From Candidatus Omnitrophota bacterium (GTDB lineage: Bacteria; Omnitrophota; Gorgyraeia; Zapsychrales; Fredricksoniimonadaceae), in the NCBI GenBank assembly GCA_903901225.1, contig CAIUQE010000021.1, positions 1 through 37,583 on the forward strand: DNA of 37,583 nucleotides, in the 5' to 3' direction. The position numbers were made by a program, and so were the translations under genes. Under the pieces are notes generated by a model. It was not told the origin of the DNA, searched no databases, and saw only the letters and a program-made list of their open reading frames with translations. Of this stretch, positions 23,722 through 37,307 are shown one piece after another. The stretch's first letter is position 1. Every line of letters starts with the position of its first letter.

Positions 23722-23748
23722 AGCGAACAGAAGATTTTCGAGTTTCAT

Positions 23749-23824
23749 GGTGGCTGTAGATCAGTGGTAGATCCCTTGATTGTGGTTCAAGTTGTCGCGG
23801 GTTCAAATCCCGTCAGCCACCCCA
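23749..23824 (+). tRNA. tRNA-His (anticodon GTG), likely attachment site
   Basis: A cloverleaf with the His-specific extra G at -1 (23749), acceptor GTGGCTG / CAGCCAC, anticodon stem CTTGA / TCAAG around TTGTGGT (anticodon GTG), T arm GCGGG-TTCAAAT-CCCGT and discriminator C. CCA is encoded at 23822-23824, unlike the two other tRNAs here. The last 12 bases overlap the 3' end of the serine recombinase gene on the other strand, so the 3' half is the probable att core. Confidence 0.93.
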
Positions 23825-25483
23825 TATGAGACGCCCTGGCGAAACAGAGGCGTCTGGAGCCAAAACCTCATCCTGACCAATGGTCGGGGTGGGGTTTTTC
23901 TCTTTCTTGGACGGATTCTGATCGATAAGTTTTGGCAAGTTCACGGTGTCGCACAGGGCTTCCCCGATATACATGTTGATGGTGATCCTGTCATCGTATG
24001 CGACCAGGTCTTTGATCAGGGCCTGCATGAGGCTCTTCTGGGCCTCATGCGGGACTTTTTCCAGGTGTTGCATGGCAAGCGTAATGTTGGAGTGAAGAAA
24101 TTCACCGGATGACGCGTCCATTTGCGCCACACGTTTTTGGGCCTGCAGTTTTTGTATTTCTGTCTCGAGCTTACCGATCTCTGATTCAATCCCGGCCAGT
24201 TTGTTCTTATATGTTGGTCCTTGAGGGATCGCGTCGTCCATGGCTAACTGAAGCAGCTTGTCTGCGCTATGCCGCAAGGTGTTAAGTTCTTTTTGTTGTT
24301 CGTCGAGCTTCGCTTCGATTGTTTCAAATTTAATCTTAGATTCCAGGATGGCGCTGCCGATTGCTTTCACTATAATTTCTTGGTCTTTGGAAGCTCGCTG
24401 GAAGTACTGGATAATGGCTTCATCGAGCGCTGGGGCTGAAATGCGCTTAAATGAGCATCCAAGCCCCTGCCGGGACCGGGAGCATTCGTAATAGTGAAAT
24501 TTCTGATTCCTGTCTCTTCCAGCGGAATGGGCGTTGACCATATGGCTGCCGCAGTCGCCGCACTTGATCAATCCGCTCAAGAGATAAACATTGTCGTGGG
24601 GAAGTTTGACGTAGCTATGCCCAGGTAGTTTGGCGGTCAACACGGAGTTCGCCTTCTCCCATAACTGTTCGCTGACAATCGGTTCGTGCGTTCCTTTATG
24701 GATCTCGCCGTTGTAAGGGATATAGCCCTTGTAAAAACAGGATCTGATAATTGTTGAGATGGCTTGCCTGCGCCAGATATTTCCGTTCTTGGTTTTGATC
24801 CCTCTTTTCAGAAGCTCTTGTCCAACCGCAGTAAGCGAGCGGTTATCGGCGATCATTTCAAAAACGACTTTGATATGAGGAGCCACTTCTTCATCATGTA
24901 CAGCCTTCATGGGTTGGCGGCCGTTGGATAGAGGCTCGCCATTCTTGATCAGTTTGTAGCCAATACGGGTTCTTCCGCCGACACTAAAACCTTTCCTTAC
25001 CCGGGCGAGCGCAGAAGATTTAACGCGTTCTCCCGTCAATTCACGTTCGAAAGCTGAAATAATACCAAGGAACCCGATGACCACTCTGCCAATAGCGGTT
25101 GAACTGTCCAGGTTTTCTCGTACTGAGATAAAGGCGATCTCCTTTTCGTTGAATAGATCGATCAGAGCATAAAGATCCCGGGGGTTACGTGTCAGTCGAT
25201 CGAGGCCAATAAATATGATCCCGTCAAAAGATCTCTTTGTTTGGATGTCATTGAGGATGGACTGTATTCCAGGGCGGTTCAGGTCTTTGCCGGAATAGCC
25301 ATCATCGGTAACAATTCCGTTCACTCCGAAGCTGGACAGTGTGTAACCGTAGGCATCCAACATGTTTTTGCAGTGGTGCGCCTGGGCATGAAGTGTCGTG
25401 AAATCACCCTCGCCCTGCTCATCAGTTGAGCATCTACAATAAATGGTGATCGCTTTCTTTTCCTTCGGAATTTTTGCCAGCAT
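23813..25483 (-). CDS. Large serine recombinase (integrase of the element)
   Basis: This is a 556-residue site-specific recombinase. The catalytic serine is S19 in IYCRCSTDEQ. The resolvase domain continues with DGYSGKDLNRPGI, GLDRLTRNPRDLY and a long helix to about 160; the recombinase domain covers about 165-280. A zinc beta-ribbon (LIKCGDCGSHM...YYECSRSRQGLGC) follows at about 320-365, then a coiled coil to about 480. This is a complete large serine recombinase. The ribosome binding site GAGGAAA precedes the ATG. The C-terminal codons (LIWGG-stop) lie across the 3' end of tRNA-His, so integration fuses recombinase tail and tRNA. It should catalyse integration and, with a directionality factor, excision. 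Confidence 0.92.
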   Translation of the reverse strand: MLAKIPKEKKAITIYCRCSTDEQGEGDFTTLHAQAHHCKNMLDAYGYTLSSFGVNGIVTDDGYSGKDLNRPGIQSILNDIQTKRSFDGIIFIGLDRLTRNPRDLYALIDLFNEKEIAFISVRENLDSSTAIGRVVIGFLGIISAFERELTGERVKSSALARVRKGFSVGGRTRIGYKLIKNGEPLSNGRQPMKAVHDEEVAPHIKVVFEMIADNRSLTAVGQELLKRGIKTKNGNIWRRQAISTIIRSCFYKGYIPYNGEIHKGTHEPIVSEQLWEKANSVLTAKLPGHSYVKLPHDNVYLLSGLIKCGDCGSHMVNAHSAGRDRNQKFHYYECSRSRQGLGCSFKRISAPALDEAIIQYFQRASKDQEIIVKAIGSAILESKIKFETIEAKLDEQQKELNTLRHSADKLLQLAMDDAIPQGPTYKNKLAGIESEIGKLETEIQKLQAQKRVAQMDASSGEFLHSNITLAMQHLEKVPHEAQKSLMQALIKDLVAYDDRITINMYIGEALCDTVNLPKLIDQNPSKKEKNPTPTIGQDEVLAPDASVSPGRLIWGG

Positions 25484-25901: not shown

Positions 25902-25933
25902 CCTCCGTGATTCCTCCGTGATTTTGCGTGATT
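25902..25933. repeat. Iteron-like tandem repeats
   Basis: CCTCCGTGATT is repeated exactly in tandem (25902-25912 and 25913-25923), followed by a diverged third unit TTGCGTGATT (25924-25933). They stand just before the sigma-factor and primase genes. Short tandem repeats there suit a replication origin or a regulator binding array. Three units is a small number for an origin. Confidence 0.5.
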
Positions 25934-25979
25934 GTTTTGCCTGGTAATTTTGAAGGACATTCGAGAAAGGGAATGTCCT

Positions 25980-26543
25980 ATGAAAAATAATATGTTTGAT
26001 GATCAAGTGCAAGTCTGGGAACAGGCAGCAGTGAGACGCATAGCTAGGAAGTTAGGCGGGCGATGGCAACACTCGAAATTGGAAGTGGCAGATTTGGAGC
26101 AGGAGGGTTTGATTCGTTGGCTTGCGTTAAGATGCAAGTTTGATCCTGATCGCGGTGCAGATATTAAAACTTTCTTGGTTAAGGTCGTTGAGGGACAGCT
26201 GGGACATATGCTGGAGCGCATGTCAGCGGATAAACGCAAAGCTTCAATAGTGGCGTCTTCATTGGATCAGCCACGGGAGGGGGCGGAAGATGTGGCTACC
26301 TTAAAGGAAGCAGTTGTTGATGACAGGAATTTTGCGCGTGAGGTCGATCTCAAGATCGATATAACCGTATTGTTGCAAGAGGTGAGCCCCAGACAGAGGG
26401 CTCTCTGTTGTCTTCTGCTGGACGGGCACACAATGAAGGAAGTCAGCGACAAACTCAATATTTCAAAGGGAGTTGTTTACGACGAGATTAACCGCATGGA
26501 ACATGTAGCTCGAAAGTTGGGGTTGCACGGGTATTTCGAGTAG
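25980..26543 (+). CDS. Sigma-70-like RNA polymerase factor of the element
   Basis: I choose the ATG at 25980 (187 residues) because AAAGGGA precedes it by 7 nt; an upstream start at 25932 has no site. A region-2-like segment (DLEQEGLIRWLALRCKFDPD, then FLVKVVEGQLGHMLERM) spans about 38-85. A region-4-like helix-turn-helix (SPRQRALCCLLLDGHTMKEV with NISKGVVYDEINRMEH) spans about 135-178. Region 3 is replaced by a short linker. Proteins of this kind occur in phages and integrative elements and direct host RNA polymerase to element promoters, or act as DNA-binding regulators. It is the first gene of a rightward operon with the primase genes. Confidence 0.75.
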   Translation: MKNNMFDDQVQVWEQAAVRRIARKLGGRWQHSKLEVADLEQEGLIRWLALRCKFDPDRGADIKTFLVKVVEGQLGHMLERMSADKRKASIVASSLDQPREGAEDVATLKEAVVDDRNFAREVDLKIDITVLLQEVSPRQRALCCLLLDGHTMKEVSDKLNISKGVVYDEINRMEHVARKLGLHGYFE

Positions 26544-26592: not shown

Positions 26593-26895
26593 ATGGCGGT
26601 GTGCAGATTTGTTTTTAATAAGGAAGTTTCTAAAGATGTGATTAAGGAAAAGATCGCTCAGGCGGTTTTTATGACCGAAGGGCTTTACGGTAGAGCCGCG
26701 GTTAGGTTGGATGCGGCATATCTAACATCGGAGTGTCAGGTTGTGGTTGATACGTCAACCCCAGTAGGGGAACACATTGCGCAGATATTTGCGACCGTTG
26801 CAACCTGGGAGTTTGGCGACGAGGCGTTTGTTGTTGAGCGGCTAAAGGGTAGTAATACAAAACAGGAGTGTACAGATGATACCAAAACACATTAA
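26593..26895 (+). CDS. Hypothetical protein upstream of the primases
   Basis: A 100-residue protein with a clear AAAAGGAGCGG ribosome binding site. The sequence alternates helices and strands (VCRFVFNKEVSKDVIKEKIAQAV, then CQVVVDTSTPVGEHIAQIFA), a small alpha/beta fold reminiscent of HxsD-like or ferredoxin-like proteins, but I do not assign a family. Its 3' end overlaps the first primase-polymerase gene by 20 nt, so the two are translationally coupled and probably act together. Confidence 0.6.
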   Translation: MAVCRFVFNKEVSKDVIKEKIAQAVFMTEGLYGRAAVRLDAAYLTSECQVVVDTSTPVGEHIAQIFATVATWEFGDEAFVVERLKGSNTKQECTDDTKTH

Positions 26896-27439
26896 AGATT
26901 TTATGTTTGTAAGAGTGAAGCCTAAATCTAAGGTGCCTTTTGATCGTGACTGGGCGCGTGATCCGGGCGCGCATTTTACATCAGACCAGATACGCCCGTG
27001 GATCGAGCAGGGGAATAACTATGGCGTGTTGACCGGCCCCGATTCTGGTGTGGCCGTAGTTGATTGCGATGACCCGTTATACGTGAAACTTTTTGCGGAA
27101 CGTCTTCCTGAAACATTTTCTGTCTGCAGTTCGGTGGGGAAGCGGCACTTTTATTTCAAAGTCGAAAACTTTCCTATTGGTCAGCAGAAGATCGCTCTCG
27201 TTGATCCCGATTGGACAGAAGACATAACTCGTCAGGGCGGCGATATTCGCTATGGGGGGTCTTACGTTGTTGGGCCGGGCTCTATTCATCCAAATACTGG
27301 CGAGCCTTATCTTGTTGTGGACGATGTCCCCGTGGCTACTGTGGATTATAAGTATTTACTTAGGGCTTTCGGGCAGTATTTCATAAATCTCAAGCAATGG
27401 AGTGAACGCCTTTCGCAGGTGTTTCGCACAGAGAAATAA
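26876..27439 (+). CDS. Stand-alone Prim-Pol (bifunctional primase/polymerase N-terminal domain)
   Basis: This is a 187-residue protein consisting only of an archaeo-eukaryotic-type primase domain of the prim-pol/PF09250 class. Catalytic acids are D63 and D65 in GVAVVDCDDP; H91 is in SSVGKRHFYF; the third conserved block is GGDIRYGGSYVVGPGSIHPN (from about 120) followed by TGEPY. Such domains make primers and extend DNA in plasmid and phage replication. It lacks the helicase or zinc domains usually fused to it. The next gene carries a second, related prim-pol domain, with the same D-C-D and GPGS-x-HP motifs, plus a zinc finger and an ATPase. A heterodimer or division of labour is possible (inference). 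Confidence 0.85.
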   Translation: MIPKHIKDFMFVRVKPKSKVPFDRDWARDPGAHFTSDQIRPWIEQGNNYGVLTGPDSGVAVVDCDDPLYVKLFAERLPETFSVCSSVGKRHFYFKVENFPIGQQKIALVDPDWTEDITRQGGDIRYGGSYVVGPGSIHPNTGEPYLVVDDVPVATVDYKYLLRAFGQYFINLKQWSERLSQVFRTEK

Positions 27440-27450
27440 CAGGAGAAGCT

Positions 27451-29895
27451 ATGGCAGATTTTTTCAACCGGGCAGTAATCATACCGGAATTGATAAGACA
27501 TCTTATGTTTTGCAAGGTCGGGGCGTTTACCAAGAAGCCTTGCGAAAAAGCGTGGCAGTCCACGCCATATACGTATGAAGAAATAGTGCCGTGGACTAAC
27601 GATGGCGGCAGTTACGGGATCATGTCCGGCTTTAATCATCTTGTTACGATCGATTGCGATTGTAAGAAGTATTTTGATCTTGCTTTAGAGCGTTTGCCGC
27701 CGACCTTAACGATTCAGTCATCATCTACTGAGAGAGGACATCTTCTGTATTCTGTCCCCGACTTTGGCGAGCGTATCAATAAGTATGTTTTGGTTCACCC
27801 AGATCATCCGGAGGACGGTAAGGAACAAGGCGGTGACATACGGGCTAAGGGGTTTCAGACAGTTGGGCCTGGGTCTTACCATCCAGATACGCGTCAGCCA
27901 TACACCGTACGTGATGCGAGGCCTATTGCAGAAGTGACGTTTTCGATGATTCTTGATGTGTTTGGCGAGTACTTCCGGACGCCGATTGTCTCAGAGACAG
28001 CAAAGGAGCACGTTGAAGGGCCTGCTATAGGGCTGTCTATTATGGATGTGGTCAGCCACTACAACATATCTCTTACTGCGCGGCAATGTGGGGGTGAGCA
28101 TTTTGGGACGCACCCTATACATGGTTCCACTGGGGGGCATAATTTCTGGGTTAATGATAAAGACAATACCTGGTGTTGTTTCAGGTGCAACACCGGTGGT
28201 GGATCTGTATCGCTTGTTGCAGTGCTGGAAGAAGTTATTGATTGTTCAGAGGCCCGAAAGGGCGGCCTGACGGGAGATAAATTTAACGAGACCTGTTGCA
28301 TCATAGAGCAAAACTTTGGGGTAAAGATCAAGACCGGGGGTAGCGTAGGCAGCGCGTATACGAAGCCCGTGGTGGATGAGAAAGTAGACTTTGTAGACAA
28401 CTGGCATGCCAATCTCTTTTTCACTGACGGGTTTCCCTTAGATGCGTTGCCGGTGAACTTGAGGGTTTTTATTCAACGTGTTGCCTGTTCTTACCGTGTT
28501 CCTACGGATGTGGTCGCGGTGTCGAGTCTGGCGGTCATCTCGGCGGCTATCGGTAATACGGTTCGGATTGCGCCAAAGGCGGGGTGGCTGGAGCCGCCTT
28601 TCCTTTGGGTTAATGTGGTCGCTGATACAGGTACCGGGAAGAGCCCCTATATGCAGTGTTTGATCAAGCCTCTGGTAGAGCGCGATGTGGAACTTCAGAG
28701 AAATTTTGAAGAGGCGGAGAAATCGTATGGATACAAGATGGCTATCTTCGCGGCTCGTTTCAAGGACGCTGTTAGGGTGGCCGCCAAGGGGGTAGCGCCC
28801 GATGATCCCCATGATGCAGCGGAGCCCTTTGATGAGGCTGCGGTGGATAGTTGTGCGAAGCTTGAGCCTGAGCCGCCTAAGAGGGAACATGGCTTTGTAG
28901 ACGACACGACGCTTGAAGCGTTGGCTGTAACTATGAATGGGACGCCCCGTGGTCTTCTTCTGTTCAAAGATGAGCTTGCAGGTCTGATTTTAGGTTTTAA
29001 TCAGTACAAAAAGGGAGGTGGAGACGATAGACAGAAATTTCTAACCCTTTGGAACTGTGCTCCTATGAAGATTGATCGGGCAGGGGGCGGGTCGCGGATG
29101 ATTGAAAGGACGGGAATCGCGATTATGGGCGGCATCCAGCCTGCGCTGCTGGGGGCGGTTTTTGGCGAGGATGCGCTGCTTGATGGGTTATTACCCAGGT
29201 TTATTTCAGTCTTTATGGAAGACCCTGGTTTTGAGTTTACAAAAGAATCCGTCGATGATAAGGACACGGAGTATTGGAGAGATTTCTTGAGAAGCTACTT
29301 CCTTGTTGAGCCAGGGGAAGCACCGCGGATAGTGGCTTTTGATAGCGAGGCGCAAGATGGCTTTTATAAATATTGCAAGAACCTGGAAGATCGTTTTTCA
29401 TATTTGCCGGTTAAGTATAAGGCTTTTGCCCCGAAGTTGCGTTCTTATCTTATTCGGATAAGTGGGCTGTTCGCGGTTCTTAATGGGAAGACCGTTGTTG
29501 ATCGAACATGCATAGTACAGGGGGCTGGCGTGATTGAATACATCGCCGGCAGTCTCATCCAGATTTTTCGGTTGGCGCAGTACCAGCGCTTTGATGGGAT
29601 ACAAAAGAACATTATTAAGGCTATGGCTGGGTTGGTGGATCAGGTAAAGAACGGGCGGCTGGCGCTATCGATGTTACGGGAGCATGTTAATTCAGGGCTG
29701 AATGAGAAGTTTCATTTGACAGGCAAGATCATTGCGGGGCGAGTTAGACATTTGGGGTTCGGCACAAAAGAAGCCGGTGGATATACGGAGATATTATGGG
29801 ACCAGGCCCGATTGGAAAAGTTATTGGAACAATTAAAGGCCCCAACGTCTACAAAGTCATCCATCCCGGACAAGATGGCTCAATACGACGTGTAA
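27451..29895 (+). CDS. Replication protein: Prim-Pol + CHC2-like zinc finger + DUF3987 ATPase
   Basis: This is an 814-residue fusion. Residues 1-175 are a second prim-pol domain: D68-C-D70 in LVTIDCDCKK, H97 in ERGHLLY and KEQGGDIRAKGFQTVGPGSYH at about 125-143. Residues about 195-290 resemble a CHC2 zinc finger, with C213, H217/H221 and C243-x2-C246 in WCCFRCNTGGGSVSLV. Residues about 315-760 match DUF3987 ATPases, with Walker A ADTGTGKS (391-398), a Walker-B-like LLFKDELAGL (D507-E508) and a conserved block around GIAIMGGIQPALL. This joins primase and helicase-like functions, the core of element replication. It follows the stand-alone prim-pol by 11 nt, with GGAGAAG as ribosome binding site. 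Confidence 0.85.
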   Translation: MADFFNRAVIIPELIRHLMFCKVGAFTKKPCEKAWQSTPYTYEEIVPWTNDGGSYGIMSGFNHLVTIDCDCKKYFDLALERLPPTLTIQSSSTERGHLLYSVPDFGERINKYVLVHPDHPEDGKEQGGDIRAKGFQTVGPGSYHPDTRQPYTVRDARPIAEVTFSMILDVFGEYFRTPIVSETAKEHVEGPAIGLSIMDVVSHYNISLTARQCGGEHFGTHPIHGSTGGHNFWVNDKDNTWCCFRCNTGGGSVSLVAVLEEVIDCSEARKGGLTGDKFNETCCIIEQNFGVKIKTGGSVGSAYTKPVVDEKVDFVDNWHANLFFTDGFPLDALPVNLRVFIQRVACSYRVPTDVVAVSSLAVISAAIGNTVRIAPKAGWLEPPFLWVNVVADTGTGKSPYMQCLIKPLVERDVELQRNFEEAEKSYGYKMAIFAARFKDAVRVAAKGVAPDDPHDAAEPFDEAAVDSCAKLEPEPPKREHGFVDDTTLEALAVTMNGTPRGLLLFKDELAGLILGFNQYKKGGGDDRQKFLTLWNCAPMKIDRAGGGSRMIERTGIAIMGGIQPALLGAVFGEDALLDGLLPRFISVFMEDPGFEFTKESVDDKDTEYWRDFLRSYFLVEPGEAPRIVAFDSEAQDGFYKYCKNLEDRFSYLPVKYKAFAPKLRSYLIRISGLFAVLNGKTVVDRTCIVQGAGVIEYIAGSLIQIFRLAQYQRFDGIQKNIIKAMAGLVDQVKNGRLALSMLREHVNSGLNEKFHLTGKIIAGRVRHLGFGTKEAGGYTEILWDQARLEKLLEQLKAPTSTKSSIPDKMAQYDV

Positions 29896-30074: not shown

Positions 30075-30668
30075 ATGCGATTAACAACTACAAAAGCGTT
30101 TTCAATATCGACGGAAAATTTGAATAAGATGCACTTCTTTGAACCGTGGTCGCGCACTGGCCCGTATGATCTGCAATTCGCATTCGGGAGTGATGTGGTC
30201 ACGATAAGTTTAGAGCGTTCTTTGGAAATGGGGGATCGGTGGGTGCGCGTTTTGAGCATGACGTGCCCTAACTGGCCAGAGAAGAGGGTATTAAATCAGC
30301 TGATTGGAATTGATGATACTTTTCCGTATTTCGGAGGCCGGCGTTTCTGGTTTCGGTGTCCGCTACCTAAAGACGGCCAGATATGCTCGAACCGTGTTGG
30401 CGTTCTGTATCTCCCCCTAGCTGGAGATTCTTACGGTGGTTTTGGGTGCCGCTGCTGCCACAATTTACGGTATCCGCCTAATGCCAATAACGCCAGGGAG
30501 ACAAATCGGGCCACCCTGCGAAAGGTTCGGAAACTACTGAATTATCAAATCTTGCTTTATAAGCATTGTGAAGATTGCGGGGTGTCTCTTGCTCTCTTTG
30601 AGGGCAAGGGGGTTACTATTCGTTCAAAAAGGTGTCCGAAGTGCCAAGAGGCCAGGAGTCGCGGGTAA
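30075..30668 (+). CDS. Zinc-ribbon protein of mobile elements
   Basis: A 197-residue soluble protein of a family seen in phages and integrative elements. The first metal site is in FWFRCPLPKDGQICSNRVGV followed by LYLP and FGCRCCHNLRYPP. A second Cys pair pattern at the C-terminus, CEDCGVSL...SKRCPKC, would bind another zinc. The N-terminal part is not recognisable. It probably binds DNA or protein; no catalytic motif is visible. AAGAAGGA precedes the ATG. The 179-nt gap upstream (29896-30074) shows no gene. Confidence 0.65.
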   Translation: MRLTTTKAFSISTENLNKMHFFEPWSRTGPYDLQFAFGSDVVTISLERSLEMGDRWVRVLSMTCPNWPEKRVLNQLIGIDDTFPYFGGRRFWFRCPLPKDGQICSNRVGVLYLPLAGDSYGGFGCRCCHNLRYPPNANNARETNRATLRKVRKLLNYQILLYKHCEDCGVSLALFEGKGVTIRSKRCPKCQEARSRG

Positions 30669-30997: not shown

Positions 30998-31047
30998 TTG
31001 TAAAGATTGCTTTTGGGTGTTACACTATGTTGTATGAGATATCATAC
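30998..31047 (+). promoter_or_regulatory. Promoter and palindromic operator of the MerR-like gene
   Basis: TTGTAA (30998-31003) and TACACT (31021-31026) are 17 nt apart. Just downstream, GTATGA-GATA-TCATAC (31032-31047) is a perfect 6+6 dyad. The site covers the start of transcription, suiting repression by the HTH protein encoded next (31076). Confidence 0.6.
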
Positions 31048-31075
31048 GGACAACATATTGATTAAGGGGGATAAC

Positions 31076-31585
31076 ATGCTTTTAATGATAAATCTTACTC
31101 CAGCCCAGATGGCGCGTCATTTGAGTGAAAGCTTTGGCTATGCGGTCAGCGCGTCCGTCATAGTCAAATGGGACAATATGATTCTCAAGAAGCCACACAC
31201 AGGCGGGGGTGATGAAAAGGGGGCCAGGAGGATGTATAGCATGGCCGATGCAACCTTGTTCAATGGGATTGCCGTGATGCGAAGTCTTGGGTATTCAATC
31301 GAGTCAATAAAGAATGTGTTTGATCTCAATCTTAATGACGCTGCAGCTGAGAAGGAGTGCACGACATTCATTGAGGCCATAAAGGAAAAGGCCACACGGC
31401 AGAAGAAGGGGCTGGATCTTTACGCCGCTTTCTTTCCTGCGCTTAAGGGTAGGTATGGCAGGCCTGGGAAGCATTTATTCAAACCGGCAGGAGACGCGGC
31501 GTTGGCGTGCAGGGAACAAGATCGTCTTCACGGCGTTCAAGATGCTTCTGGTGTTAAGCCCAGAAAACATAAATCCAAGGTTTAA
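31076..31585 (+). CDS. MerR-like helix-turn-helix regulator
   Basis: A 169-residue protein from the ATG at 31076, which has AAGGGGG upstream; a longer frame from 31007 would run through the promoter and operator and is rejected. Residues about 5-60 resemble a MerR DNA-binding domain: TPAQMARHLSESFGYAVSAS, then VIVKWDNMILKKP and RRMYSMADATLFNGIAVMRS followed by LGYSIESIKNVFDL. A helical middle and a basic tail (KPRKHKSKV) follow. The dyad directly upstream suggests it represses itself and perhaps the small genes after it. The effector is unknown. Confidence 0.65.
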   Translation: MLLMINLTPAQMARHLSESFGYAVSASVIVKWDNMILKKPHTGGGDEKGARRMYSMADATLFNGIAVMRSLGYSIESIKNVFDLNLNDAAAEKECTTFIEAIKEKATRQKKGLDLYAAFFPALKGRYGRPGKHLFKPAGDAALACREQDRLHGVQDASGVKPRKHKSKV

Positions 31586-32114: not shown

Positions 32115-32526
32115 TCGGGAAGAAAAGATAACAGTAATGTTTGAGGTGTTATGGAACCTGGATCTTTATTCAGAAGCGGTAAAGTTTTACGCTGACACCG
32201 GACGGCCATTTTGGCTTACTGAGGCAGTTGCGCGTTATTATGAATCAGAAGGTAAGTTCGAGCAGTCGATTGAAGAGTGGAGCTATTTGATTGATATATA
32301 TTTTGTAATGGGAGAAACCGCTCAACTGATGCTTAATTATCAGGATGAAGTTTTCATGTTAGGCTCTTGGTATGCCAGCACCGACAGAGACAGGTCGATT
32401 AAATATTTGAGTGCATATGTCGGGTTCGCTTACCAATGGAGGAGAATGCCAGGTTTGAAGTTGCCGTATAAGGGCAGGGCGGCAAGAATGTTATATAAGC
32501 TAAGAAGGCCTAGATCATGCGAATAG
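32104..32526 (+). CDS. Helical hypothetical protein
   Basis: A 140-residue protein, largely helical and rich in aromatic residues (WNLDLYSEAVKFYADTGRPF, then WLTEAVARYYESEGKFEQSI and so on), with a helix-pair rhythm like TPR-type repeats. No family is recognised. It starts inside the end of the Cys-motif gene and its own end overlaps the resolvase start by 10 nt, so the three form one tightly coupled operon. Confidence 0.55.
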   Translation: MISNREEKITVMFEVLWNLDLYSEAVKFYADTGRPFWLTEAVARYYESEGKFEQSIEEWSYLIDIYFVMGETAQLMLNYQDEVFMLGSWYASTDRDRSIKYLSAYVGFAYQWRRMPGLKLPYKGRAARMLYKLRRPRSCE

Positions 32527-33047
32527 AAATATACGGACGTGTCAGTAAGAATGATGCAAGCCAGGATCCGCAGAATCAGCTTAATCCCCTGCGGGACTAT
32601 GCTAAAGCGTTGGGCGGAACCGTTGTGGCCGAGCATATTGACTTCTCGTCTGGGGGGAAGTCAGATCGCGAAGGCTTTCTGAAGATGCTTGAAGATGCTG
32701 ACCGACGGAAGTTCGACCTTTTATTGATTTGGTCTTTGGATAGAATGAGCAGAGAGGGAATCTCAAACACTTTGGCATATCTCCAGCGTTTGAAGAAAAA
32801 CAATGTATCAGTAAGATCTTTAAGAGAGTCCTGGTTGGATACAACGGACGAATCATTGTCGCAATTGCTTCTCGCGATATTTTCCTGGGTCGCTCAGCAG
32901 GAGCGGTTAAGGATCGTCGAGCGGACCAAGGCCGGTCTCGACCGGGCTCTTCGTGATGGTAAACGATTAGGCCGCCCCCCCGGCGCTAAGGATTCGAAGA
33001 AGAGGCCTCGAGCTGGTTATTTCCTGCGTTATCAGAAGACCAAGTGA
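32517..33047 (+). CDS. Small serine resolvase/invertase
   Basis: A 176-residue protein with a full resolvase catalytic domain: S10 in IEIYGRVSKNDA, DFSSGGKSDREGF, LLLIWSLDRMSREG (with the conserved Arg pair), VSVRSLRESWLDT and the long helix QQERLRIVERTKAGL. The C-terminus, GKRLGRPPGAKDSKKRPRAG, ends with a short basic tail YFLRYQKTK instead of a complete helix-turn-helix; I have seen this shorter form in related environmental genomes. It may resolve dimers or invert a segment; no inverted segment is evident. It is distinct in sequence from the large integrase at 23813. Confidence 0.85.
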   Translation: MRIEIYGRVSKNDASQDPQNQLNPLRDYAKALGGTVVAEHIDFSSGGKSDREGFLKMLEDADRRKFDLLLIWSLDRMSREGISNTLAYLQRLKKNNVSVRSLRESWLDTTDESLSQLLLAIFSWVAQQERLRIVERTKAGLDRALRDGKRLGRPPGAKDSKKRPRAGYFLRYQKTK

Positions 33048-33336: not shown

Positions 33337-36300
33337 TTGTCGCCTGACTGTGAGATAAAGAACTTTATGCGTCTAATCAAGAACATAGGCAATGATCGCG
33401 TTATAGATGAGCTGAAGGCCAATGCCGGCTCCGGCTCATCCATGGCAGTAGTCTCTCCGGTATTCTCTCTCTTTGCTTATGTTGAGTTAAAAGATCAGCT
33501 GGCAGCACTAGAGCGTTGCCGTTGTTTATTACCGGAGCAGGGTCTTTCTGTTCTCGGCGCTGATAAAGACAGAGTTTTCCGCAATCGCCTCGTGTCACGC
33601 CACATCGCCAGCCAATGCTTGCAATGGCTTTCCAGTAAAGTAGATGTAAAAGGTCTTTCCGGGACACCGCCTCAGTCGCTGTTAAGTTTAACCGATGCGA
33701 ATGGAGTGCGGCGTGTTATTACAGGGAACTGTTCTTTCTCAACTGAAGGCTTCGGGCTTATCCCTGGCGATCAGTTGGGATTGGTTCAGTGCGCTGAAAC
33801 AGCCGAAGAAGGGCAACTGCTCATGGCCTGGTTTGAACAGTTATGGTCCAATACGCCGCAGTCTCCTGGATATAAAGGACAGCTTCAGAAGGCGCTTCAG
33901 GCCATCGTTGATCACAAGTCATCGGCTTTGATTTACTATTCCATTCTTCACCCATTGTTTGCCGATATTGGTTCTGGTTTGGATGAAGATAAGGTTATTA
34001 AGTCTGCGACTGGTATCCGCAACACGGTTGTCTGGAAGAAGTTGTTTAAGTTTCAGCGGGATGGCGTTGTTGGCGCTATCGACAAGATCGAGCGTTATGG
34101 TGGTTGCATCATCGCGGATAGTGTCGGTCTTGGTAAGACTTTCGAAGCACTAGCCGTGATCAAGTATTATGAGCTTCGTAACGATCGTGTCCTGGTTCTT
34201 TGTCCCAAGCGCCTCAGGGATAACTGGACGCTCTATAAAGTGAATGATCGCCGGAATTTCCTGGCCACGGACCGGTTTAATTATGATGTTCTGAACCACA
34301 CCGATCTTTCGCGCGATAACGGACTCTCCGGGGATATAGACCTTTCTTCTGTGAACTGGGGAAATTACGACCTGGTTGTTATCGACGAATCACACAACTT
34401 CCGCAACAAGATAGCTAATAAGGACCGTGAAAGCCGGTACGATCGCCTGATGCGCCGCATTATTCAGGAAGGCGTGAAGACCAAGGTCCTGATGCTTTCC
34501 GCGACGCCGGTAAACAGCCGCCTGAATGATCTCAAGAATCAGATCGCCTTTGTAACCGAGGGTATCGATAACGCCTTGGTTGAGACTGGCATTCCCAGTA
34601 TTGAGCAAACGATCCGTCAGGCGCAGGCACAATTTAACCGTTGGTTGAATATCAAGGAAACAGAACGGACGGCACCCCGCCTTCTGGATATGTTGGGGTT
34701 TGATTATTTTAAGCTACTGGACACATTAACCATTGCCCGTTCCAGAAAGCATATCGAGAAATACTATGGCCTGACGGAGACCGGCCGTTTTCCCAGGCGC
34801 TTAAAGCCGTTGAATTATAAACCTGATGTAGATAACACGGGGGAGTTCCCGTTTATTGAAGAGATTAATGACGAGATCCGTCGCCTTACATTAAGCGCCT
34901 ACGCTCCTTTACGTTATGTGTTGCCCCAGAAACAGGCTGAATATGACAAGAAGTACAGTACAGAACTGAAGAAGAACGGCGTGTTTTTCCGTCAGTCAGA
35001 TCGTGAAGAAAGCCTTGTTCACCTGATGCGGGTCAATCTGTTGAAGCGAATGGAAAGTTCAGTCATATCCTTTGCGCTTACGCTTAAACGGCAGCTGGAA
35101 GATGTTAATGGACTTTTGAGTAAGATCGATGACCACCAGGAATCTTTGGATGAATTATCTATAGAAGACATTGAAATTGATGATGATGAATTTGAGACGC
35201 TACTTGTTGGTCGAAAAGTTAAGGTGCTCTTGCAGGATGTCGACCGTATTCGTTGGCGACAGGATCTTCTTGAAGATCGGAATCGAATGGCATCGTTATT
35301 ATCTGCGGCTTCGCAGGTCGGTGCAATCAAGGATGCAAAACTTGAGAAGTTGAAGGAAATTATTACTGGCAAGCTTCGTTCACCGATCAACCCGGGGAAT
35401 AAGAAGATTCTGGTCTTTACCGCGTTTGCCGATACGGCTAATTATCTTTACCAGGAGTTATCCGGATGGGCAGGGAAAGAGCTTGGGTTGCATACTGCCA
35501 TTGTTACGGGATCTGGGACCAATAAGACAACCCTGCCTAAGCTGAGGACCGACCTCGGCAGCGTTCTTTCAGCTTTTGCTCCAAAGGCCAAAGAACGCCC
35601 CCAAGAGATGATCGATGAAGGACAGATCGATCTTCTGATAGCGACGGACTGTATTTCTGAAGGGCAGAACCTTCAGGATTGCGATTGCGTGATCAATTAC
35701 GACATTCACTGGAATCCGGTTCGTATTATCCAGCGATTTGGCCGTATTGATCGTATTGGTTCACCCAACGAGAGCATTCAGCTCATCAATTTCTGGCCCA
35801 ACATGGAACTTGAGGAGTATATCAACCTAGAACAGCGTGTTAGCGGGCGAATGGTCCTGCTGGATATTTCCGCGACAGGTGAGGAGAACATTATTGAGCA
35901 ACAGGCGGGTAACAAGATGAATGATCTTGAGTACCGCCGGAAGCAGCTCTTAAAGCTTCAGGATACCGTGATCGACCTTGAGGATCTTTCCGGGGGAATC
36001 GCCATTACGGATTTAACGCTCAATGACTTCCGCATAGATCTGGCCGGGTTTCTAAAGGAACAACCAACGGACTTGGAAAATTTTCCTCTTGGATCATTCG
36101 CTGTCTTAAGTCCTCAGGAAGGGATACCTTCGGGTGTTGTTTTCTGTTTGCGGGCCGTTGGGGAAGCTGCGTTAAGCGCGATTGAGCCAGGGTATGCCTT
36201 AGCTCCGTATTATCTTGTCCATGTTGGTGATAACGGAGAGCTTGTTCTTTCTTTTGCGCAAACCAAACAGATCTTGGATACGCTAAAGAGACTTTCGATA

Positions 36301-36558
36301 GGACGGAACATGCCTGATCATACCGCATGTGTGATGTTTGACAAAATCACTCGCGATGGACGTGATATGGAGCATTACCAGGAGCTGTTATCAAAGGCCG
36401 TTGGTGCAATCGTTGGCAAGAAAGAAGACCGGGCGATCGCCAGTCTTTTCACTCCTGGCGGAACCTATGCCATGAAGGGCGAGTTCTCGGGGATCAATGA
36501 TTTTGAAGTTGTTTCGTATATTGTGATCTTGCCTAAAGGGAGTACGGGCGCATCATGA
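33337..36558 (+). CDS. SNF2-type helicase with degenerate PLD-like N-terminus (defence-type)
   Basis: This is a 1073-residue protein from a TTG, with an ATG ten codons later (33367) as alternative. The N-terminal part (about 20-175) has the PLD-nuclease framework of such helicases (SSMAVVSPVFSLFAYVELKD, GNCSFSTEGFGL), but the H-x-K of the HKD motif appears to be missing (PPQSLLSL in its place), so it is probably inactive as a nuclease. The helicase core is complete: Q-like motif FQRDGVVGAI, Walker A DSVGLGKT (about 260-267), DESH (about 350), SATP (about 388), and IQRFGRIDRIGS (about 797-808). Helicases of this type are found with DUF4391 proteins and type III methyltransferases, as here. Confidence 0.85.
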   Translation: MSPDCEIKNFMRLIKNIGNDRVIDELKANAGSGSSMAVVSPVFSLFAYVELKDQLAALERCRCLLPEQGLSVLGADKDRVFRNRLVSRHIASQCLQWLSSKVDVKGLSGTPPQSLLSLTDANGVRRVITGNCSFSTEGFGLIPGDQLGLVQCAETAEEGQLLMAWFEQLWSNTPQSPGYKGQLQKALQAIVDHKSSALIYYSILHPLFADIGSGLDEDKVIKSATGIRNTVVWKKLFKFQRDGVVGAIDKIERYGGCIIADSVGLGKTFEALAVIKYYELRNDRVLVLCPKRLRDNWTLYKVNDRRNFLATDRFNYDVLNHTDLSRDNGLSGDIDLSSVNWGNYDLVVIDESHNFRNKIANKDRESRYDRLMRRIIQEGVKTKVLMLSATPVNSRLNDLKNQIAFVTEGIDNALVETGIPSIEQTIRQAQAQFNRWLNIKETERTAPRLLDMLGFDYFKLLDTLTIARSRKHIEKYYGLTETGRFPRRLKPLNYKPDVDNTGEFPFIEEINDEIRRLTLSAYAPLRYVLPQKQAEYDKKYSTELKKNGVFFRQSDREESLVHLMRVNLLKRMESSVISFALTLKRQLEDVNGLLSKIDDHQESLDELSIEDIEIDDDEFETLLVGRKVKVLLQDVDRIRWRQDLLEDRNRMASLLSAASQVGAIKDAKLEKLKEIITGKLRSPINPGNKKILVFTAFADTANYLYQELSGWAGKELGLHTAIVTGSGTNKTTLPKLRTDLGSVLSAFAPKAKERPQEMIDEGQIDLLIATDCISEGQNLQDCDCVINYDIHWNPVRIIQRFGRIDRIGSPNESIQLINFWPNMELEEYINLEQRVSGRMVLLDISATGEENIIEQQAGNKMNDLEYRRKQLLKLQDTVIDLEDLSGGIAITDLTLNDFRIDLAGFLKEQPTDLENFPLGSFAVLSPQEGIPSGVVFCLRAVGEAALSAIEPGYALAPYYLVHVGDNGELVLSFAQTKQILDTLKRLSIGRNMPDHTACVMFDKITRDGRDMEHYQELLSKAVGAIVGKKEDRAIASLFTPGGTYAMKGEFSGINDFEVVSYIVILPKGSTGAS

Positions 36559-37307
36559 GGACAGCAAATGATGTCTTGGCGGCATTAGGATTGCCTCCTG
36601 GATCCCGGCTTGATAAACGGGTACCCAAGAAGTTGTTGGCTGAACAGGGGGCATTCGCTGCAGGTGATAAGCGCAAGGTTCAGGACGGAGTAGAGGAATT
36701 GCTTTGGGTGGCGGCGTTAAAGCCCTCCAACATCGCGGTATCAGAATATCGTGACGGTACACGGGAATATCTGGAGATCGCGGTTATTTCAGTGAGATTG
36801 AAGCCCGAAGCGTCCAAGGCGCGGTTAATGGAGTTGGTGCACCGGGCTATTCCGTATCCTGTTGTGCTGATCGCTGAGCAAGGCAGTGGCATTGACCTTT
36901 CGTTGGCGCACAAAAGGGCTTCAGCTGGAGAGCATGGAAAAGTCATACTGGATGGGGAAGCCGTCTCTGTTTTTCTGAATGAAACAGCCTCTGCTGAAAA
37001 AGATCTTTTGGGTTCTTTGTCTGTTGCAGACCAGCCGTCTGGAAACTTGTTTGGTTTATATCAGGGCTGGCTGGACAAACTGACAGCGTTTAGGGTGGCT
37101 CAGGTTACGGGCCGTTTTGTTGCGACGGGGGATGCCGCTGGACGGCTGGAACAATTTAAGGAATACGAGGCCATTCAAGAGAAGTTGAAAGAATTGCGCG
37201 CCGCGGCCAGTAAAGAACGGCAGATAAATAACAGAGTGGAAATCAATCTTGAGGTTCAGCGGTTGGAAGCTCGACTTAAGAATCTTGCTGAAACGTTAAA
37301 AAGGTAA
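36555..37307 (+). CDS. DUF4391-family protein
   Basis: A 250-residue protein that overlaps the helicase stop (ATGA). The N-terminal part, ALGLPPGSRLDKRVPKKLLA, followed by a central alpha/beta region with YLEIAVISVRLKP and IPYPVVLIAEQGSGIDLSLA, is typical of DUF4391. A coiled coil closes the protein (about 205-250, EYEAIQEKLKELRAAASKER onward). No catalytic motif is recognised. The family is known from loci with a helicase, a type III Mod and a Res protein, where it may be a scaffold or specificity partner (inference). Confidence 0.8.
   Translation: MRTANDVLAALGLPPGSRLDKRVPKKLLAEQGAFAAGDKRKVQDGVEELLWVAALKPSNIAVSEYRDGTREYLEIAVISVRLKPEASKARLMELVHRAIPYPVVLIAEQGSGIDLSLAHKRASAGEHGKVILDGEAVSVFLNETASAEKDLLGSLSVADQPSGNLFGLYQGWLDKLTAFRVAQVTGRFVATGDAAGRLEQFKEYEAIQEKLKELRAAASKERQINNRVEINLEVQRLEARLKNLAETLKR

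Follow-up and report, generated by a model that had tools for sequence, protein, structure and literature searches.

Proteins that combine an AEP domain with a ZnBD or PriCT module, an AAA+ motor (DUF3987 and VirE included) and a winged helix are found in integrated elements, often at tRNA genes, and in the parts of that work considered here the AEP-DUF3987 fusions are predicted to be replication proteins of mobile elements (PMC5862659). To start primers, AEPs require a helix-bundle or zinc module, whereas extension does not depend on this module and may be hindered by it (PMC8718748). Mutations in the helix bundle of NrSPol weaken priming and strengthen polymerization, and human PrimPol, which requires its zinc finger for priming, polymerizes better once the finger is lost (PMC8718748). 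The prim-pol of pRN1 ORF904 (1rni, 3m1m), the nearest solved fold to the two proteins described below and one with the same type of acidic and His motifs, belongs to a single protein that has a helix bundle needed for priming as well as its own helicase. In SCCmec, CCPol, MP and Cch2 are encoded in one operon and interact (PMC7581432). A role in replication should not be assumed for such enzymes, since the PrimPol of a Thermus mobile element is dispensable for replication of that element, according to the portion of the study drawn on here (PMC7693054). A targeted literature search for tandem or duplicated AEP genes returned nothing on point, which is weak evidence of absence. What appears to be new at the locus reported here is an extra intact free AEP gene beside a fusion of an already known type.

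A free and a fused Prim-Pol side by side

The stretch of DNA analysed (37,583 nt, hereafter the window) is one whole contig (C21) of an Omnitrophota genome of 2.38 Mb in 49 contigs. An earlier note on it had described two consecutive Prim-Pols, the second of them joined to a zinc finger and a DUF3987 domain, and this description holds, the ORFs being as given and Pfam and structure models being in agreement. The first protein, P1 (26876-27439, plus strand, 187 aa), consists of a single Prim-Pol (AEP) domain, which matches PF09250 with E=9.7e-19 and 68.8 bits against a cut-off of 22.8. Its AlphaFold2 model (pLDDT 91.5, with the last ~17 residues less confident) finds its best PDB match in the pRN1 ORF904 prim-pol (1rni, E=8.6e-9, TM 0.64), followed by the NrS-1, S-2L and CAPP enzymes, and gives P1 an AEP fold. 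No zinc finger, PriCT or helicase was found in P1, which, unlike pRN1 ORF904, has neither a helix bundle for priming nor a helicase of its own.

The second protein, P2 (27451-29895, plus strand, 814 aa), is separated from P1 by 11 nt, and a good Shine-Dalgarno sequence precedes each of the two ORFs. It consists of a Prim-Pol domain (residues 22-161; PF09250 E=1.4e-12, over the gathering cut-off as is P1), a HxxH/CxxC zinc finger (195-261) and a DUF3987 ATPase (350-706; Pfam E=5e-55) with the Walker A motif DTGTGKS (392) and the Walker-B-like motif LLLFKDE (502). The N-terminal region of the P2 model matches 1rni (E=7e-7) and 3m1m, and as modelled it has an AEP fold with motifs I-III. The match of the zinc region to the CHC2/DnaG zinc ribbon (Zn_ribbon_DnaG; E=1.3e-4, 22.1 bits) is slightly below the cut-off of 24.9, which the zinc domains of most relatives exceed, and in the model this region matches the zinc domain of Aquifex DnaG (2au3; rmsd 2.4, E=6e-3). 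Its ligands H221/H224/C243/C246 form a HxxH...CxxC motif unlike the classical CxxH...CxxC; the pattern HxxH...CxxC/H is found throughout this sub-family, and the ligands set P2 apart from the fusions of PMC5862659. Past residue ~295 the model is of low confidence and no reliance is placed on it; residues 736-796 follow a helix-helix-hairpin pattern (pLDDT only about 40-55), and a C-terminal winged helix is possible.

The D-x-D, the His and the GPGS-x-HP block that had been read in both Prim-Pols are indeed kept, the block as VGPGSxHP, the alignment adding a third acidic residue, and HMM and structure searches assign both proteins a prim-pol fold. P1 carries D63-C-D65 (DxD), H91, D123 (in QGGDIR) and VGPGSIHP at 132-139, and P2 carries D68-C-D70, H97, D129 and VGPGSYHP at 138-145. 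Across 21 aligned Prim-Pol domains, 23 columns are near-invariant in relatives, of which P1 matches 21 and P2 matches 17; at these family sites the free copy is no less canonical than the fused one, and P1 is consequently not an obvious relic.

On its own P2 is ordinary. AEP-ZnBD-DUF3987 fusions have already been described for mobile elements (PMC5862659), so that novelty of the fusion is not supported, and by domain make-up P2 resembles the PrimQH/all3500-type proteins in having AEP, zinc and DUF3987 parts in one chain. The passages of PMC5862659 covered here mention no extra free AEP gene beside the fusions of these families.

A mosaic element at tRNA-His

P1 and P2 sit in a serine-integrase mobile element integrated at the tRNA-His gene (23750-23824, plus strand, ARAGORN), the left edge of the element lying at or just past the 3' end of the tRNA. 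Window positions 23741-23843 are 94% identical to the tRNA-His region of a genome of the same genus, at which no integrase or primase was seen, and this homology ends at 23843, as fits the left junction of the element. Its right end is beyond the contig end. The low GC content of the genes for P1-P3 (0.46-0.50 versus 0.61 in the host gene on the left flank), together with the integrase, supports a mobile element. Starting from the tRNA, the gene order is a large serine recombinase on the minus strand, a sigma-like regulator, P3, P1, P2 and a zinc-ribbon protein, followed by a MerR-like regulator, an invertase, a Snf2-type helicase and a DUF4391 protein.

The large serine recombinase (23813-25483, minus strand; Pfam Resolvase, Recombinase and Zn_ribbon_recom) is a CcrC/XisF-like integrase, its match to the NCBIfam CcrC-like model being below cut-off, and integrases 50-59% identical to it occur in other Omnitrophota elements and prophages. 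The sigma-70/ECF-like regulator (25932-26543, plus strand; TIGR02937, 57.3 bits, cut-off 42.9) probably starts at the ATG at 25980, and in most related loci a homologue of it immediately precedes P3. Beyond P2, the zinc-ribbon protein (30075-30668, plus strand) has 35-39% identical homologues in L014 and L024, and related elements keep it downstream of their single Prim-Pol fusions. The MerR-like regulator (31007-31585, plus strand; PF13411) shares 48% identity over 79 aa with a gene of the L026 element, in which the small serine recombinase or invertase-like protein (32517-33047, plus strand; PF00239 E=3.6e-31, phrog_125) also has a homologue. The element is thus a mosaic, since its genes are split between two sets of relatives: the integrase, the sigma-like gene and P3 are common to one group that includes prophages with terminases, while several elements with AEP-zinc fusions have the zinc-ribbon, MerR or invertase genes in common with it, along with a distant integrase. 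Positions 33337-37307 encode the Snf2-type helicase (PADLOC C3a139 'HKD+Snf2', E=1.7e-128; phrog_26785) and the DUF4391 protein, which overlap by 4 nt and are likely a defence pair carried by the element.

P3 (26593-26895, plus strand, 100 aa), the small ORF pointed out earlier as coupled to P1, does overlap the P1 start, by 20 nt. It belongs to no family in Pfam, PADLOC or NCBIfam and has no convincing match in PHROGs; homologues are present in 7 other Omnitrophota genomes (E<=4e-7). In several Omnitrophota elements and prophages the homologues come after a sigma-like gene, and what follows them varies, being a SF2 helicase gene or, in G008, methyltransferase and terminase genes. Judging from this gene context, P3 appears to pair with the sigma-like gene and not with the primases. 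The suggestion that it assists the primases was therefore dropped, and P3 provides no evidence for a three-part primase complex, as it stays with the sigma-like gene whatever comes after. It represents an unnamed family of small proteins encoded after a sigma-like gene and beside a serine integrase (L112-L117, L119). Two of these loci, L114 and L116, are Omnitrophota prophages with terminase genes that have the integrase, the sigma-like gene and P3 in common with the window element.

PICMI-type phage satellites contain an integrase, AlpA and a DUF3987/DUF5906 primase and are inserted at fis (PMC10803314). The window element has an integrase and DUF3987, but no AlpA was found among the scanned proteins and its site is tRNA-His, so that this assignment was rejected, as was that of an SCC-like replicating cassette, the CCPol, MP and Cch helicase families being absent among the proteins of the element. 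As for a complete prophage, which would have terminase and structural genes, the phrog_15 terminase was found neither in the whole genome nor among the scanned genes of the element, whose right edge is off the contig. No replication origin repeats (iterons) were found near the P1 and P2 genes, and a promoter scan of the locus was uninformative. Elsewhere in the same genome, at a place without a tRNA (L123:6280-6365, G000:C32), an 87-nt stretch matches the 3' end of tRNA-His together with the 3' end of the integrase at 88.5%, possibly as the relic of a related element.

Distribution of the pair and candidate roles

PF09250 identified 24 domains in 19 of 384 Omnitrophota genomes, and only the two of the window share a contig. 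L022, a locus labelled Gammaproteobacteria, comes from genome G419, and of the 299 genomes searched in the phylum of G419, 42 have Prim-Pol domains, none of them in an adjacent pair and the nearest on one contig being tens of kb apart. A pattern-based scan of the genomes of 84,980 species yielded 22 loci, at none of which a second active Prim-Pol stands beside the fusion. As the zinc part of profile A1 appears to match DnaG (positions ~170-242) in most genomes, only matches spanning the AEP part were counted. Viral contigs scanned with P2, with P1 alone and with a P1/P2/L022 alignment gave no relatives, and a wider AEP alignment found distant ones only (L044 and L045); in phages the relatives of P1 are all distant (about 30%, most of them in Enterococcus phages), and plasmids hold three weak ones. 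The free Prim-Pols at L125 and L128 each overlap a larger neighbouring gene, apparently as primase/helicase pairs that have been split, and no free and fused pair was seen among the other free Prim-Pols inspected. As far as these sequence searches reach, the active pair thus appears unique to the contig. The earlier note had itself counted a pair confined to this contig against its proposal, and with no other adjacent pair in the 384 Omnitrophota and 299 further genomes, nor at the 22 loci, this is not a conserved two-gene system; with no second element bearing the same pair, nothing shows that selection keeps it as a unit. The L026 element has a free 193-aa Prim-Pol-like ORF (L026:2676-3257) ~4.7 kb from its Prim-Pol/zinc/DUF3631 fusion; this ORF has lost the D-x-D and the His and is possibly a dead counterpart of P1.

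P1 is ~40% identical to the primase domain of P2, with a path length of about 2.1-2.6 changes per site. Together with L022 they form one clade (support 98/95 and 99/99 in two trees) characterised by a QGGDIR motif III that is preceded by an insert. P1 and P2 as exclusive sisters fit slightly worse than P2 with L022 (p-AU 0.069), and support for the latter grouping dropped from 92/87 to 75/58 in a smaller tree. The trees allow both a duplication within the element and a gain from a sister element; either event would be old, given the ~40% identity.

Our tentative reading, plausible though short of probable, is that P1 and P2 constitute the replication module of the element, P2 priming and unwinding and P1 extending primers or filling gaps. 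From the observed gene content, folds, motifs, kinship and integration we infer the activities, their division and their use in replication. P2 would be the main replication protein, its AEP domain and zinc finger making primers and its DUF3987 AAA+ motor unwinding DNA. P1, a diverged and apparently intact relative of the P2 AEP domain with neither priming module nor motor, would act as a DNA polymerase that extends the primers of P2 or fills gaps; since it has no zinc or PriCT module, a role as polymerase or extender is likelier for it than that of a second complete primase. Primer synthesis and extension would consequently be divided between two related proteins. The retention of all catalytic motifs in both AEP domains after deep divergence speaks for this reading, as do the confident AEP model of P1 and the plasmids, described below, on which a DUF3987 gene adjoins a separate Prim-Pol or toprim gene. 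Against it stand the intact AEP domain of P2, which could do both jobs, the lack of origin repeats near the genes and the lack of a second element with the pair in the genomes searched. A bolder version, which we consider doubtful, is a minimal all-AEP replisome made of P2 as primase-helicase and P1 as dedicated AEP replicative polymerase, with conflicting activities split. In single-chain primase-polymerases the primer-starting domains hinder extension (PMC8718748); a natural pair with one copy bearing the priming module and one without it would allow a direct test of the conflict between priming and extension, and might give rise to a compact replication system of two proteins.

The main rival to P1 as polymerase or extender is a leftover P1: the gain or duplication of P2 would have truncated an older replication gene, of which P1 is the remaining front, or a stray copy, and P1 would have no dedicated role and be in the course of being lost. 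Consistent with this, P1 stops just beyond its AEP domain, its less confidently modelled end lying 11 nt ahead of P2, none of the genomes searched has a second such pair, and the free ORF of the related L026 element has lost catalytic residues. However, the P1 frame is intact, has a good Shine-Dalgarno sequence and overlaps the upstream gene, and deep divergence has left every catalytic motif and 21 of 23 near-invariant sites in place; we regard a leftover P1 as rather unlikely. If P1 were inert, the locus would document the decay of replication genes in mobile elements of a little-studied phylum.

The physical two-primase replication complex proposed in the earlier note, possibly including P3, is decidedly unlikely. 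The genes are adjacent and probably co-translated, the AEP folds are related, and operon-encoded primase/helicase complexes are known in SCCmec (PMC7581432), but P1 is devoid of a zinc or PriCT module, P3 accompanies the sigma-like gene in unrelated contexts, and co-occurrence of P1 and P2 was not found elsewhere in the genomes searched. Although AEPs have roles in repair and damage tolerance (PMC4538821) and, in the part of PMC8211822 considered here, in CRISPR adaptation, and although the downstream Snf2 helicase gene resembles HKD+Snf2 defence proteins, a task for P1 in damage tolerance, defence or anything other than element replication is less probable still, its nearest relatives being replication fusions, its gene lying directly against that of P2 and no repair or CRISPR genes being recognised beside it.

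Related fusions and arrangements in other elements

Combined AEP and zinc modules resembling the N-terminus of P2 are also present in further Omnitrophota elements and on a small number of additional contigs. Single Prim-Pol/zinc/helicase fusions (L023, L026, L028, L031 and L032 in Omnitrophota, and also L022) have the same AEP and zinc front, 28-46% identical, and L023 and L026 share with the window element the presence of a large serine recombinase. Their motor, where identified, is DUF3631, D5/DUF5906 or VapE, and, unlike in the window, no free active Prim-Pol lies alongside. This variety of motors suggests that the AEP-zinc front is a swappable replication module.

Among more distant arrangements, SCCmec (PMC7581432) is also a serine-recombinase element with an operon for separate polymerase/primase and helicase functions; its CCPol, however, is an A-family polymerase rather than an AEP and its helicase is Cch2, which makes it an analogy of design only. 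An Alicyclobacillus curvatus plasmid (CP071185.1) has a separate Prim-Pol gene immediately before a DUF3987 gene, but the helicase of this plasmid has no primase of its own, whereas that of P2 does. On a Bartonella plasmid a DUF3987 gene adjoins a toprim gene. Identical Prim-Pol domains are encoded at L029:1182-3821 and L030:2451-5585, in genomes labelled Syntrophorhabdus and Methanocellaceae respectively, which reflects either a cross-domain transfer or misbinned contigs.
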